From the NCBI GenBank assembly GCA_028820655.1, contig JAPPIK010000059.1, forward strand, positions 32,956 through 78,669: a DNA stretch of 45,714 nt. Direction: 5' to 3'. The first letter of the stretch is position 1, and each line of letters begins with the position of its first letter. Shown here piece by piece: positions 1,169 through 7,300 of the stretch. The notes beneath the pieces are model-generated. The model worked only from the letters and a program-made list of their open reading frames with translations. It searched no databases and was not told the origin of the DNA. This DNA comes from Candidatus Poribacteria bacterium. Its GTDB lineage: Bacteria > Poribacteria > WGA-4E > JAJDTR01. Made by a program: the position numbers and the translations under genes.

Positions 1169-3412
1169 GTGAAACAGATTTGCACTCATTTTTTATTCGT
1201 ATTGTGTCTCTGTCCCTATACCGCTTTTGGACAGCAGCCTTCAAGCCAATCCGGCGAAATCCACGGCACAGTCTTCCAACAGACTCTTAAACAGCCCATC
1301 CTATCGGCGCAAGTGCGCATCGTCGAGACTGGTCAGCGCGTACGCACCGATGAGAACGGCGAGTTTCAGTTTCGAAACCTGTTCCCCGGATCATATACCC
1401 TTACCGCAAACGCACCAAGACACCAACCATCTACAAATACCGTGGCCGTCGTAACATCGGCGGAAATCACACGAGTAGAGATCTATCTTGAGCCGGTTGT
1501 AGTCTCGCTTGACGAAGTGGAGGTCACGACAGACCGTCCTCTGCAATCTCCCGGCAGGCAAAGTTTGGGCGGCGAGGAGATTCAGCGCGTCCCCGGTACG
1601 GCTGGAGATGCCCTTCGCGCCCTGCAATCCTTGCCTGCCGTCGGCGTGGCAAACGATTTTAGCGGCGCCCTGTATATCCGCGGCGGCGCTGACACAGATA
1701 ACCTTTATTACTTTGACCGGGTGCCGATCGGTTACCCCTACCATTTCGGCGGGATTGTCTCCTCGCTCAGTTCCGAAGTCATTGAGCGGATTGATGTTTA
1801 CGCCGGCGGTTACGGCGCCGAATTCGGCGTGGATTCCCAAGCGGTGATCGACATCTATTCCAGGGACAAAAATACAGCCGGTTTCGATGCCAAATTCAAC
1901 CTCAATCTACTTTACTCCGAAGGGCTATTGGAAGGCGTAATTGGCGACCAAGGATTTTGGTATGCCGCCGGACGCAGAAGCTACATTGACCTGTTTCTCA
2001 GGTCGGTATCGTTCGATAGCGGACAAATCACCGCCTTTCCACAATTCTGGGATTATCAGGTAAAGGGAGGTTATCGCCTTTCCGAAAAGCATCAACTCTC
2101 GCTCAATGTTTTTGCCTCCGGCGACAGCTTTGCGCTCAAGCTGGATGGCGAAGATGTGGACGAAGATTTAAGAGGAAACATAGACTTTGACAGCGGTTTC
2201 GAGGGAGCCGGCATTCACCTCCGCTCTCTACTCACTGACCGTTTGACCTCCTATCTATCCTTGACCCGTTCCTATTTTGCGTTTGACGTCAATATCGGCC
2301 CTGATCTATCGCTCAAAGTCGATGCTCCGCAGTATGTGATTCGCGAGGACCTCACCTACACGCTAACCCCGAAACATCAAATTGAAACCGGTTTGATACT
2401 GGGACTCGAACCGGGACGGGCTACCGGCAATTTTCTGCGTCCGCCGGATGAGGGCGAAGTCGATTACGATCCGCGGTTTATCGAAAAGCAATCGATCGAC
2501 GAATCCTCACTGGGAAAACGACTAGAAATCTATCTGCAGGACCGGTACAGGTTATTGCCATTTTTGTCGTTTGTGCTCGGTCTTCGGACGGATTACTTAA
2601 GCTATATTGACGATTTTTCCATCCAACCGCGCGGAAGCCTGCTTTTCGAAGTCTCTGCAGGTTCTCAGGTGCAACTCTCTTATGGAACCTACCAGCAGCG
2701 GCCGGCACCGCCGCGGCTTACCGAGAGCGTCGGAAACCCGGAGTTAAGCAACAGCGGTGCCAGCCACTATGTTTTGGAATATACGCGTGAAATCTCAGAG
2801 GCGACCCAAATCAAAGTCGCCGGTTACTACAAGAACCTTGTCGACCTCGTGACCAAAGATGACGAAGCGCAGTATCTCAATCAGGGCGTCGGGTTCGCGC
2901 AGGGGACCGAGCTGTTTCTCCGCCATCAAACAGGAGAGCGATTCTTGGGGTGGGGTTCCTACGCCTATGGACTCTCCAAACGGCGGGACCGCCCCGGCGA
3001 GCCGTACCGCTTCTATTCGTTCGACCAAACGCACGTGGCGACGCTTGCCGGGACCTTCCGTCCCACGCCATCGTGGGAGATTGGCGCAAAATGGCAGTAC
3101 CGGACCGGCAATCCCTACACCCCGGTTCTTGGCGCAGACTTGAAATCCGACCCGCGCAACAACGATCTCATCTACGTCCCAATCTACGCCGAGACGAATT
3201 CGGCGCGTTTTCCCGCGTATCACCGGCTGGACGTAAAGATTAGCAAAGCCTTCCGCTTTGACAATTGGCAGATGCGCGTCTTTCTCGAACTGCTAAACGC
3301 TTATAACCGCAAGAACCTTCTCGATTTCAGCTACAACGACGATTACACGGAAAAGGAAGATATCTACCAATTCCCGATTATCCCGTACTTGGGAATAGCC
3401 GTTGAGTTGTAG
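1169..3412 (+). CDS. TonB-dependent outer-membrane receptor with carboxypeptidase-regulatory N-domain
   Basis: Predicted outer-membrane active transporter of unknown substrate, 747 aa. Residues 1-21 are a signal peptide (cleavage after AFG). Residues about 28-110 are a carboxypeptidase-regulatory-like domain (GTVFQQTLKQPILSAQVRI, then TDENGEFQFRNL). Residues about 115-235 form the plug, with EEIQRVPG, LYIRGGADTDN and IDVYAGGYGAEFG. The rest is rich in alternating aromatic strands as in a 22-strand barrel, ending YLGIAVEL. GTG start; GAGGA lies 12 bases upstream. This architecture is typical of SusC/CirA-like receptors. No SusD partner, TonB, ExbB or ExbD gene is in the window, so energy coupling must come from elsewhere and substrate cannot be guessed. 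Confidence 0.92.
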   Translation: MKQICTHFLFVLCLCPYTAFGQQPSSQSGEIHGTVFQQTLKQPILSAQVRIVETGQRVRTDENGEFQFRNLFPGSYTLTANAPRHQPSTNTVAVVTSAEITRVEIYLEPVVVSLDEVEVTTDRPLQSPGRQSLGGEEIQRVPGTAGDALRALQSLPAVGVANDFSGALYIRGGADTDNLYYFDRVPIGYPYHFGGIVSSLSSEVIERIDVYAGGYGAEFGVDSQAVIDIYSRDKNTAGFDAKFNLNLLYSEGLLEGVIGDQGFWYAAGRRSYIDLFLRSVSFDSGQITAFPQFWDYQVKGGYRLSEKHQLSLNVFASGDSFALKLDGEDVDEDLRGNIDFDSGFEGAGIHLRSLLTDRLTSYLSLTRSYFAFDVNIGPDLSLKVDAPQYVIREDLTYTLTPKHQIETGLILGLEPGRATGNFLRPPDEGEVDYDPRFIEKQSIDESSLGKRLEIYLQDRYRLLPFLSFVLGLRTDYLSYIDDFSIQPRGSLLFEVSAGSQVQLSYGTYQQRPAPPRLTESVGNPELSNSGASHYVLEYTREISEATQIKVAGYYKNLVDLVTKDDEAQYLNQGVGFAQGTELFLRHQTGERFLGWGSYAYGLSKRRDRPGEPYRFYSFDQTHVATLAGTFRPTPSWEIGAKWQYRTGNPYTPVLGADLKSDPRNNDLIYVPIYAETNSARFPAYHRLDVKISKAFRFDNWQMRVFLELLNAYNRKNLLDFSYNDDYTEKEDIYQFPIIPYLGIAVEL

Positions 3413-4179: not shown

Positions 4180-5394
4180 ATGAGATCGTTTCCCCCAGAA
4201 GAACTCTACTACATTACCCACATAAACAATCTACATTCTATCCTTGAAAAGGGAATCTTGTCTCATGAAAGGATTGAGCAACTAGGATTAGGGTATACAT
4301 CGATTTATAATGAGGGGGTGGTCAGCAAACGCAGGAACAAATCAACGCCGGGGGGTGAAAGCCTCTGGCACTATGCCAACCTATACTTTCAGCCTCGAAA
4401 TCCGATGATGTATAGTATTGTCAGTACAAGAGACAAAGAGAATCTTGTTGTTATAGGCATATCGAAGGAGGTGTTATACGAACACGGTGTTCTTTTCACT
4501 GATGGCAACGCAGCCAACGCTCCAACACAATTTTACTCTCAGTCTGACGGACTAAAAATCCTTAAGCAACAGTGGAATGCGATTCGAAACGACTGGTGGA
4601 ATAAAGATGACGGATCCAAGCGCAAAATCATGGCAGAGTGTTTGGTACCCAACAGCGTGAACTCAAAGCACATCAATTCGCTGTTCGTTGTCAATACCGC
4701 AATTGGAAGCCGAGTAAAGCAGATTGTTGGGGAGCGCCAAATCTCTGTAATTCCAGAACCTCACATGTTCTTTCAACCGGGATCTCGAACCCAGATCGGA
4801 AACAATGTTTCCCTTGTTGACGGTGATATGTTTTTTTCCACCATGCATACGTTAACAATTAGCGTTAATCTTCAAGGAGTAATGGGAAAGGGGCTGGCGT
4901 CGCGTGCGAAGTATCAATTTCCTGATGTCTATGTAGAATACCAAGATGCATGTCGTGCAAGGAAGATTACAGCGACACGCCCCTATCTTTATAAACGTGA
5001 GACTTCATTAGATTACGAGTTGGCAGACCCAAGTTTACCGCTTTCGACTCCCAACGCTGTAAAATGGTTTCTGCTCTTTGCGACCAAGCGAAAATGGCGC
5101 GAAAACTCGCGATTAGACGACATCGAAGCTGGATTGGACTGGGTAAAAGGAAATTACAAAAAAGAAAAAATTGAGTCGCTCGCCATGCCGGCTCTAGGCT
5201 GCGGTTTGGGTAATTTGTCTTGGGCTGATGTGGGGCCGCTCATGTGCAAATATCTGCATGGACTAGAGATTCAAGTCGCAATCTACCTTCCGCGCGAACA
5301 CGAGACAACTGAACAGTATTTGGACGAAGCCTATTTGCTTGGTAATCAAGTTAATAGGCCATCCTCATCCGCGAAACAGTTGGCATTCTTTTGA
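4180..5394 (+). CDS. DarT-like ADP-ribosyltransferase fused to DarG-like macro domain
   Basis: One 404-residue protein combines toxin-like and antitoxin-like parts. Residues 1-195 match DarT (DUF4433), which ADP-ribosylates thymidine in single-stranded DNA using NAD+: LYYITHINNLHSILEKGIL at 9-27, Arg51/Arg52, YFQPRNPMMY at 69-78 and the catalytic-type Glu153 in MAECLVPNSV. Residues 210-370 match the DarG macro domain, which removes the modification: GVMGKGLASRAKYQFPDVY at 233-251, FATKRKWRENSRLDDIEAGL at 300-319 and MPALGCGLGNLSW at 336-348. DarG's extra C-terminal DarT-binding domain is absent. DarT and DarG are usually two adjacent genes. No good ribosome-binding site is seen, but conserved sequence starts at residue 9. 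Likely a self-restrained DNA-modifying defence or toxin-antitoxin module; activity is inferred from motifs only. Confidence 0.88.
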   Translation: MRSFPPEELYYITHINNLHSILEKGILSHERIEQLGLGYTSIYNEGVVSKRRNKSTPGGESLWHYANLYFQPRNPMMYSIVSTRDKENLVVIGISKEVLYEHGVLFTDGNAANAPTQFYSQSDGLKILKQQWNAIRNDWWNKDDGSKRKIMAECLVPNSVNSKHINSLFVVNTAIGSRVKQIVGERQISVIPEPHMFFQPGSRTQIGNNVSLVDGDMFFSTMHTLTISVNLQGVMGKGLASRAKYQFPDVYVEYQDACRARKITATRPYLYKRETSLDYELADPSLPLSTPNAVKWFLLFATKRKWRENSRLDDIEAGLDWVKGNYKKEKIESLAMPALGCGLGNLSWADVGPLMCKYLHGLEIQVAIYLPREHETTEQYLDEAYLLGNQVNRPSSSAKQLAFF

Positions 5395-5721
5395 TGCTAT
5401 CTTTCAACATCATCCGCCAATTACCCCCGCGATTATCAAATTTGCTGATTTTCCTCTCTCGGCGCCCCATTCAATCGTATTCTTCAGACACTTGTGTTGT
5501 CCCTCCGTTGAGCTTTGTCCCCCGTTTCACAACCCTCAATAAGAAACAGAGCACAATAAAGCTGTGTAGTTGCGGTAATTTCGGTGGCTAAAAGAACAAT
5601 GCCGTTTGCCAATTTCCGAATAGTTACTGCTAAAATACCCCTGCCTTGCCACCCCTTGATTTTAGCGCGACTACTTAACACTTATGTGGCATGCTGATAT
5701 TGCCCTCCGTCTCTGCGTTCC

Positions 5722-5780
5722 GAAACCAAGTTTTTTCCCGAAACAGTCGAAATCAAGTTTTTTCTCGAAAACTTGATTTC
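5722..5780. repeat. AT-rich palindrome family: half copy plus full 32 bp copy
   Basis: The full copy at 5749-5780 has arms GAAATCAAGTTTT and AAAACTTGATTTC around a six-base loop, so it is a perfect 13 bp stem. A half copy (GAAACCAAGTTTTTTC) lies directly upstream at 5722. Another half copy is at 5891-5913. Members recur at 6620, 9329 and 22346. Confidence 0.85.
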
Positions 5781-5842
5781 TTCGCATTAGACCGGGGAAT
5801 GCTAAACACCGAAAACGTTAGCCGCTCCGAATCGTCACTAAC

Positions 5843-5878
5843 CATCAAGCGAGTGGATAGCGAGTGCGATAGAAATCC
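5843..5878. repeat. GATCAAGCGAGTGGATAGCG-family repeat
   Basis: One clean copy of the dispersed unit: ATCAAGCGAGTGGATAGCGA followed by GTGCGATAGAAATCC. This is the simplest copy of a family that is expanded and rearranged elsewhere in the window. Confidence 0.8.
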
Positions 5879-6010
5879 ACTGGCCACTGCTTTTTTCTTG
5901 AAATCTTGGTTTCATTCTCACTCAATTCTGCTATACACCGACATCCTATAGAAATGATACATCCACCGTCAGCCAATTATTCATCCCTCCCGCAACTCGT
6001 TAATTTTAGA

Positions 6011-6039
6011 TTGACTACTTAACATGTATGTGGTATATT
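6011..6039 (+). promoter_or_regulatory. Sigma70-like promoter with no gene behind it
   Basis: TTGACT (6011-6016), a 17-base spacer and TATATT (6034-6039). A GGCC-TAAC-GGCC hairpin follows about 10 bases later, and a variant of the same block is at about 5660-5692. No open frame follows, so it would drive an untranslated RNA, or it is a chance match. Confidence 0.35.
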
Positions 6040-6222
6040 ATACGGGCCTAACGGCCATGACGGCGCAACTTTAATTTTCTGTTGGCATTCTGTTAGCATC
6101 ACGATTCCTGATAACCCGCTCCAATAAAGGGATTCTCCATTTCAGAAAATGCTAACACGCCGCTTGAATCGAAGCTCCGTTAGCATCTCATTTCACTGTA
6201 TCGGCTCAAGAGACAAAGCGGT

Positions 6223-6349
6223 GATCAAGCGAGTGGATAGATCAAGTGACTGAATAAGGAACGATCAAGGGAGATCAACTGACTGGATAAGGAAGGCGAT
6301 AGAGATCCCATAGCGACCGCGATAGAAATCCCAGTGCGATAGGGATCCA
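6223..6349. repeat. Clustered GATCAAGCGAG-family repeats
   Basis: Several degenerate units in a row: GATCAAGCGAGTGGATAG, ATCAAGTGACTGAATAAGG, GATCAACTGACTGGATAAGG, then GCGATAGAGATCC, GCGATAGAAATCC and GCGATAGGGATCC. The alternation of a 'CAAGYGAGTGRATA' half and a 'GCGATAGARATCC' half shows the unit is modular. Confidence 0.8.
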
Positions 6350-6619
6350 AGCGTTTATTGACTTAAGCGATGACCTTACGTGAAAACATACTATGCACGG
6401 CAAATCTATAGCCGCACCTTTGACTCCCAACACTCTATCAAAGTGTGCCTCGAATCGTGGGGCGAAATATACGCGCGCACAATAGCGCACCCCCGTGGCG
6501 CCTGTCGTACATGGCTTCAAGCCCCACAGGGCAAGGATTCAAGCGCAATTCCAGAACTAATCCAAGTTGTGCGCTCTTATCTCGAAAGCGCAGAAGCCGC
6601 GTTTTTTCCCAATACCACC

Positions 6620-6651
6620 GAAATCAAGTTTTTTCTTGAAAACTTGGTTTC
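6620..6651. repeat. Full 32 bp AT-rich palindrome
   Basis: Arms GAAATCAAGTTTT and AAAACTTGGTTTC with loop TTCTTG; one G-T pair breaks perfect symmetry. A TTTTTTCCC half copy precedes it. Confidence 0.85.
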
Positions 6652-7083
6652 TTACTCGCTCAATTCTGCCGGGTACATTTCAAACGATGCCAAGGACGTC
6701 AACTCTATCAAATCAGACCGAATTCATATCGTCGACATCCCTGCTTTTTGGCTAAGCGGCAGGAGGCGCGCTAAATGATATTCGCAGTATATCGCAGGAA
6801 ATCGCATAGCGCACCAATCCCGTCCAACCCCTGTCATCACTGGATTCTAAGCGACTTCTTGCTATGAGCCGTCGTCTGCGACGACATCCGTGATCGCACG
6901 CCGTTGTGCATCACGCAAACCCGAAGCAAAAAAACAGGATGACCGTCAAACCATTGATGATTGATTGCGAGCCACTGCAAATAGCAAATCCCTACAAGGA
7001 TTCCGGTACAATAAACATCCTGATAGAAAACGGCAGAGTTGATTAAATCGCGGAGATACAGCGCTTCGGCGCGAGAATATGAG

Positions 7084-7166
7084 GATCAAAGGAGCGGATA
7101 GATCAAGTAACCGAATAGGGAACGCGATAGAGATCCCGTGCGATAGAAATCCCTCAAGCGGATAAA
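7084..7166. repeat. GATCAAGCGAG-family repeats upstream of the rpsF promoter
   Basis: Degenerate units GATCAAAGGAGCGGATA, GATCAAGTAACCGAATAGGG, GCGATAGAGATCCC, GCGATAGAAATCCC and TCAAGCGGATAA. They end about 135 bases before the promoter of the ribosomal operon. Confidence 0.75.
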
Positions 7167-7300
7167 TAAGCATTGCCGCATCTCCCCAATCTCATGACCG
7201 TTCATTCGCGCCTTTGAACACTCAGCGCTAGGAATGAATCCCCAAAAGACGGGCAATATTTTGGAAAGAGGTTTAATCTTTGGCATTGCTGCAATCTTGG

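Follow-up and report, generated by a model that had tools for sequence, protein, structure and literature searches.

A DarT domain and a DarG-type macro domain in one open reading frame

We analysed a window of 45,714 nucleotides from a Candidatus Poribacteria genome, in which a single open reading frame with an ATG start (4180..5394, forward strand, as are all features of the window below) encodes a 404-residue protein that unites toxin and antitoxin in one gene instead of two. Its DarT domain (residues 10-198, 4207..4773) is recognised by Pfam at 173.5 bits (E 5.8e-51, cut-off 22.5), and its DarG-type macro domain (residues 207-387, 4798..5340) by the DarG profile of PADLOC, which scores the protein at 151 bits for DarT and 145 bits for DarG, as well as by Pfam Macro over residues 302-352 (26.6 bits, E 6.4e-6, cut-off 22). 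The two are joined by a short junction (residues 193-206, 4756..4797) that contains no long linker in an alignment of 17 fused proteins. The PADLOC DarG match is confined to profile positions 3-152 of 329, so that the C-terminal part of DarG is missing; 13 residues follow the macro segment and the DarT-binding domain of DarG is absent, as a preliminary description made from the sequence alone had stated. NCBIfam likewise recognises both families, with scores that fall short of the equivalog cut-offs (131.2 versus 250 and 121.9 versus 150), which marks the fused family as divergent. The protein nevertheless shows the layout by which we recognised fused members, DarT followed by macro in an uninterrupted chain of about 390-406 residues.

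Structure prediction, which the preliminary description had proposed as a check, yielded an AlphaFold model (mean pLDDT 78.5, with low confidence at residues 137-149 and 276-293) that aligns over its full length with the crystal structure 7omu (Z 40.1, 368 residues), while its halves match Thermus DarT (7omv, Z 20.1) and the macro domain of Thermus DarG (5m3e, Z 21.6). The further structures returned by the fold search, besides 7omu and the DarT and DarG structures from Thermus and Mycobacterium, were DarT1, TARG1 and additional macro domains, which was to be expected.

All motifs on which the initial identification was based are present in the protein, namely R51/R52, YFQPRNPMMY (residues 69-78), E153, GVMGKGLASRAKYQFP and MPALGCGLGNL. 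R51 (codon 4330..4332) is the counterpart of the catalytic arginine of DarT and E153 (4636..4638) that of E160 in Thermus DarT, a position occupied by alanine in the 7omu and 7omv constructs; a misalignment of these two residues, which would have spoken against a DarT assignment, is thus not seen. The stretch from K303 to W306 (5086..5097) holds the counterparts of the catalytic lysine K80 and of W83 in Thermus DarG. Across the 17 complete fused proteins, comprising that of the window and 16 collected in one scan of genome contigs, 104 alignment columns are invariant, including R51, E153, N230 (the asparagine typical of DarG), K303 and W306. Both halves are under purifying selection, with a median dN/dS among Poribacteria proteins of the window's type (hereafter the first type) of 0.144 for DarT and 0.07 for the macro domain, computed from the 34 and 32 of 55 pairs, respectively, that were left usable once near-saturated pairs had been dropped.

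A structurally solved type of one-gene DarTG

The closest match in a sequence search of the PDB, over residues 7-387 (E 1.8e-124), is the 406-residue chain of 7omu, entitled 'Thermosipho africanus DarTG in complex with ADP-ribose' and released on 2021-06-23. The two proteins are collinear over their full length (51% identity over 381 residues) and share the single chain, the domain order, the short junction, the catalytic positions and the lack of the C-terminal domain of DarG. They differ at the catalytic glutamate, which is kept in the window protein but is alanine in the crystallised chain; compared with the natural Thermosipho genome copy, this substitution (Glu152 to Ala) is the only difference over 381 residues, which is consistent with an enzyme that had to be inactivated before it could be expressed or crystallised. 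The tail of the window protein also exceeds those of its relatives by about 15 residues, and its Lys305 stands at a position that is histidine in most relatives outside Poribacteria. The fused gene is, then, a real and correctly identified one-gene DarTG of an already known, structurally solved type, which corrects the idea of such a protein as unknown and, with it, the earlier characterisation of DarTG as a two-gene system. The primary paper on 7omu, which we take to be Schuller et al., Nature 2021, lies outside the texts that we searched, in which we found none on a fused DarTG and no paper containing both Poribacteria and DarT as whole words.

The two-gene DarTG2 systems of Thermus, Mycobacterium and enteropathogenic Escherichia coli (EPEC) combine a DarT and a DarG-type macro domain with the same key residues as the window protein, and their folds (7omv, 7yk3, 5m3e, 5m3i) match its halves. 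They are, however, encoded by two genes, and the fused clade is separate from them in the trees of both domains. The proteins also differ in what follows the macro domain: 186 to 215 residues in six of the eight two-gene systems compared (48 and 79 in the others), but only 0 to 13 in the nine fused or standalone macro proteins compared. The nearest two-gene relative in both trees is a DarTG of Rhabdochlamydiaceae (L023), whose macro domain has a longer loop, as in the fused proteins; it consists, however, of separate genes with 215 residues beyond the macro domain, and its long branch makes its placement unsure.

Spread and phylogeny of the fused family

Other DarT-macro fusions, for which the preliminary description had suggested a search, are not rare. 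The scan of genome contigs gave 23 loci, with complete fused genes in 16 of them, from Poribacteria, Anaerolineae, Ardenticatenia, Thermosipho, Blastocatellia, Bathyarchaeota and Microcoleus. The remaining loci are one in which further DarT copies precede a fused gene (L005, on the same contig as L089 below), two that run off contig ends (L021, L022), three two-gene systems (L023, L024, L025) and a fragment (L026). Within the phylum, the fused profile was matched in 44 of 84 genomes, and at least one uninterrupted full-length frame was counted from the match table in 29 of them; the window's own genome has one fused copy, and a single genome (G004) encodes separate DarT and DarG-like frames.

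In unrooted trees of the DarT (54 rows) and macro (48 rows) domains, all two-gene rows fall on one side of a branch (support 97/97 and 100/99, respectively), which separates them from the fused proteins, the standalone DarTs found beside some of these and the standalone macro domains. In both trees the window protein and the Thermosipho protein belong to the same group, which contains no two-gene DarTG. The simplest reading of these sequences is that a single fusion event lies behind all fused proteins, the trees being unrooted and the macro tree having long branches that meet among the two-gene rows. What had been a single crystal structure thus becomes a family with one shared group (on these trees), a wide spread and repeated rearrangement.

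Genomic context and patchy occurrence

Upstream of the fused gene lies a TonB-dependent-receptor-like gene (1169..3412; Pfam Plug and CarboxypepD_reg) that is outside the system and marks the locus as the same in a sister species (G013), where an 86% identical orthologue stands directly upstream of an array of a standalone DarT, a broken DarT and an uninterrupted fused gene. In the window, the fused gene stands alone behind the receptor with no defence neighbour recognised, and a tblastn search with seven queries found no DarT remnants elsewhere in the window. The frames downstream, from 7.4 kb, presumably encode ribosomal S6, SSB, S18, L9 and DnaB, as read by eye. Positions 5640-7180 form a stretch of about 1.5 kb without an evident gene and with several families of 17-61 nt repeats; many repeats were found downstream of the gene (5.6-7.2 kb) and no clear pair bracketing it. 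Contig C48 has, upstream of the window, a stretch that looks repetitive and includes a run of N. A scan for promoters and terminators returned about as many matches as in shuffled sequences.

Some of the other fusions lie beside restriction-modification (R-M) or other defence genes. Five loci were scanned for neighbours and, as they were picked for looking promising, the frequency of such neighbours among them is not a rate; three adjoin restriction or related defence genes (Type ISP/IIG in L006, HmaB and HmaC in L016, type III R-M in L121), the Thermosipho locus has a HEPN gene nearby, and the fused gene of the Bathyarchaeota locus (L017) lies behind a weakly DarT-like frame. A scan of viral contigs gave one fused relative, L121; it lies at the end of a 34.5-kb contig, beside the R-M genes, and may be cellular. 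A plasmid origin was rejected, all 83 plasmid records matched being under 60% identity; among the 30 listed, DarT and macro are annotated as two features in 27, as two hypothetical proteins in two and not at all in one. A phage origin was rejected as well, the 20 listed of 246 phage records being mostly macro-only.

Six Poribacteria loci (L009, L011, L012, L013, L020, L027) occupy one slot that is bounded by the same pair of genes, some of them with a few additional genes inside it. Among 18 genomes of one genus (g9), this slot holds the fused gene in seven, a DarT fragment in two and nothing recognised in six, and is undecided in three whose flanks lie on different contigs. Such patchy occupancy would be expected if the gene served in defence or as a toxin-antitoxin system and could be dispensed with.

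How the fused protein may work

We consider it probable that the window gene is a self-contained one-gene DarTG of the macro-linked (DarTG2) type, in which a tethered eraser clears the marks that the writer leaves on single-stranded DNA. The DarT half is predicted to take ADP-ribose from NAD+ and attach it to thymine in single-stranded DNA, a modification that would block replication, and the macro half of the same chain to remove it again. At rest, the eraser would keep the host DNA clear; net writing might set in if single-stranded targets, such as replicating phage DNA, outpaced clearance by the macro domain, or if its site were blocked, the trigger being a guess, and would arrest either the cell or the phage.

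No sequestering domain would be needed in such a protein, because erasing is catalytic. According to PMC5179494, the macro domain of Thermus DarG is enough to rescue cells from DarT, a rescue that is lost in its K80A form, and full-length DarG adds binding; for the EPEC system, PMC7003065 describes the macro domain alone as sufficient and the C-terminal part alone as also neutralising, by binding. The preliminary description had seen a puzzle in the 1:1 ratio of writer and eraser. This ratio is no paradox, since an enzyme that hydrolyses the mark need not match the writer molecule for molecule, and in these two published systems the macro domain is antitoxin enough by itself. Compared with them, the fused protein has the macro-type means of neutralisation but lacks C-terminal binding, and so its writer should, by analogy, be restrained by its own eraser alone, unless the domains block each other in cis. 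If active, the fused chain would be the simplest case for studying the switch between writing and erasing within a single chain, free of the sequestering domain that complicates two-gene DarTG.

The alternatives carry much less weight. That a frameshift or misassembly joined two genes, the explanation against which the preliminary description had cautioned, has next to no probability: the 17 complete fused genes share junction and residues across Poribacteria and six other lineages, 7omu is a solved fused protein, and the sister species carries the fused gene uninterrupted behind its own TonB receptor. A second, internal start that yields free macro domain, and hence an excess of eraser over writer, was also rejected and appears very improbable. 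Met196 does lie at the domain junction in the Poribacteria copies, near the start of the standalone macro domains of relatives, but it lacks Shine-Dalgarno support, with an anti-Shine-Dalgarno pairing of 0.1 to 0.4 kcal/mol in these copies, including that of the window, against -2.4 to -7.8 kcal/mol before the gene starts, and it is absent from the Thermosipho, Blastocatellia and Microcoleus copies. We likewise find it improbable, if less so, that one half only is at work, the protein being an eraser with a spent DarT half or the other way round. Five relatives have retained just the macro domain, and Tyr43 and Trp63 are mostly changed in the fused partners of the second-DarT operons described below, but neither active site has lost its key residues in the window protein or in any of the 17 proteins of its type, and purifying selection acts on both halves.

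The strongest competitor, still unlikely, is a housekeeping regulator outside toxin-antitoxin function and defence, whose self-erasing DNA mark would tune replication or expression. It would agree with the common locus of the window and sister-species copies, with the slot shared by the six Poribacteria loci, with the strong purifying selection and with the description, in PMC12170906, of a Mycobacterium DarTG as coordinating stationary-phase growth. A housekeeping gene would, however, hardly be full-length and uninterrupted in only 29 of the 84 genomes of its phylum, nor its slot empty or occupied by a fragment in 8 of the 15 decidable genomes of genus g9, and other copies adjoin R-M genes. 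The self-contained DarTG remains our preferred reading.

Operons with a second DarT and standalone macro domains

Less expected than the fusion itself are two findings, the operons with a second DarT in relatives of the window gene and the presence of two DarT1-like domains on a sigma factor. These operons and the targeted DarT1-like proteins are the most interesting leftovers of the analysis.

A standalone DarT lies directly upstream of the fused gene in 10 of the 84 Poribacteria genomes (L089-L098). We read 12 loci of this second type (L089-L100), and 10 have the upstream frame; of the other two, L099 ends at a contig edge and L100 retains a remnant of about 54 residues. The standalone DarTs occupy two places within the fused clade of the DarT tree, and the arrangement was therefore gained, or lost, more than once. 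Median dN/dS is 0.205 for the DarT half and 0.089 for the macro half of the fused partners, and 0.199 for the standalone DarTs. All 10 standalone DarTs keep Arg51 and Glu153, and 11 of the 12 fused partners keep Glu153 (Gly in L091); an apparent loss of Arg51 in these partners was rejected, an arginine being present within 1-2 residues in all 12 when counted from the QPRN motif. At position 110, all 17 first-type fused proteins have asparagine, the standalone DarTs have isoleucine (8), leucine (1) or asparagine (1), and the 12 fused partners vary. This position aligns with a histidine in Thermus DarT and, by eye, with the asparagine of the 'NAA' motif of DarT1; PMC11543638 assigns base recognition to histidine in DarT2 and to asparagine in DarT1.

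An intact standalone DarT of the fused clade is present at 10 loci, and each of these also carries a fused DarT-macro gene (with a stop near its end in L096); one locus counted as a lone DarT (L120, in G005) sits at a contig end. An intact standalone macro domain without DarT occurs in 5 of the 84 genomes, starting near the equivalent of the fused junction, and these five form one clade, which points to one event rather than five. Losses thus look one-sided in the sequences collected, the macro domain being kept alone and the standalone DarT always beside a fused DarT-macro. We tentatively put forward, as a possibility well short of our main reading, that the fused chain of Poribacteria is a building block repeatedly given a second writer, such that a single tethered eraser might have to undo the work of a pair of writers that differ in their choice of base or sequence; the added writer rather than the fused one would then be the real toxin, and the window would show this locus stripped down in its genus. 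In the Bathyarchaeota locus, a 232-residue frame with a weak Pfam DarT match (L017:5205-5900, forward strand; 23.6 bits, residues 11-68) lies directly upstream of the fused gene and is possibly an archaeal case of the same pairing.

DarT1-like domains fused to other proteins

In the window's own genome, a 965-residue protein (P0002; contig C37, L028:6325-9222, forward strand) carries two tandem DarT domains in the same frame as a sigma-70 factor, of which regions 1.2, 2, 3 and 4 are present. The DarT domains are recognised by Pfam, with DarT1 of E. coli C7 as the best DarT match in the PDB, and both carry, by eye, the DarT1 residues Asp, Arg, Asp, Asn and Glu named in PMC11543638. The sister species has an 85% identical counterpart of the sigma part, a 535-residue frame without DarT, and a full-length match was obtained in 1 of the 84 genomes; P0002 is possibly a chimeric assembly. 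The own genome has other sigma factors, including a 562-residue frame that scores best for region 3. We know of no precedent for a guanine-modifying enzyme tied to promoter opening. The known eraser for DarT1, NADAR, turned up in just 2 of the phylum's 84 genomes, and the genome that contains the window was not one of them.

Other DarT1-like domains are joined to different partners. A 353-residue protein (L109:4342-5400, reverse strand) fuses an SSB domain, a binder of single-stranded DNA, to a DarT1-like domain, an enzyme that modifies it, and three Poribacteria proteins (L101:3077-4975, L102:4685-7282, L104:4764-7316), together with a fourth seen by eye (L107), consist of WD40 repeats with a C-terminal DarT1-like domain.
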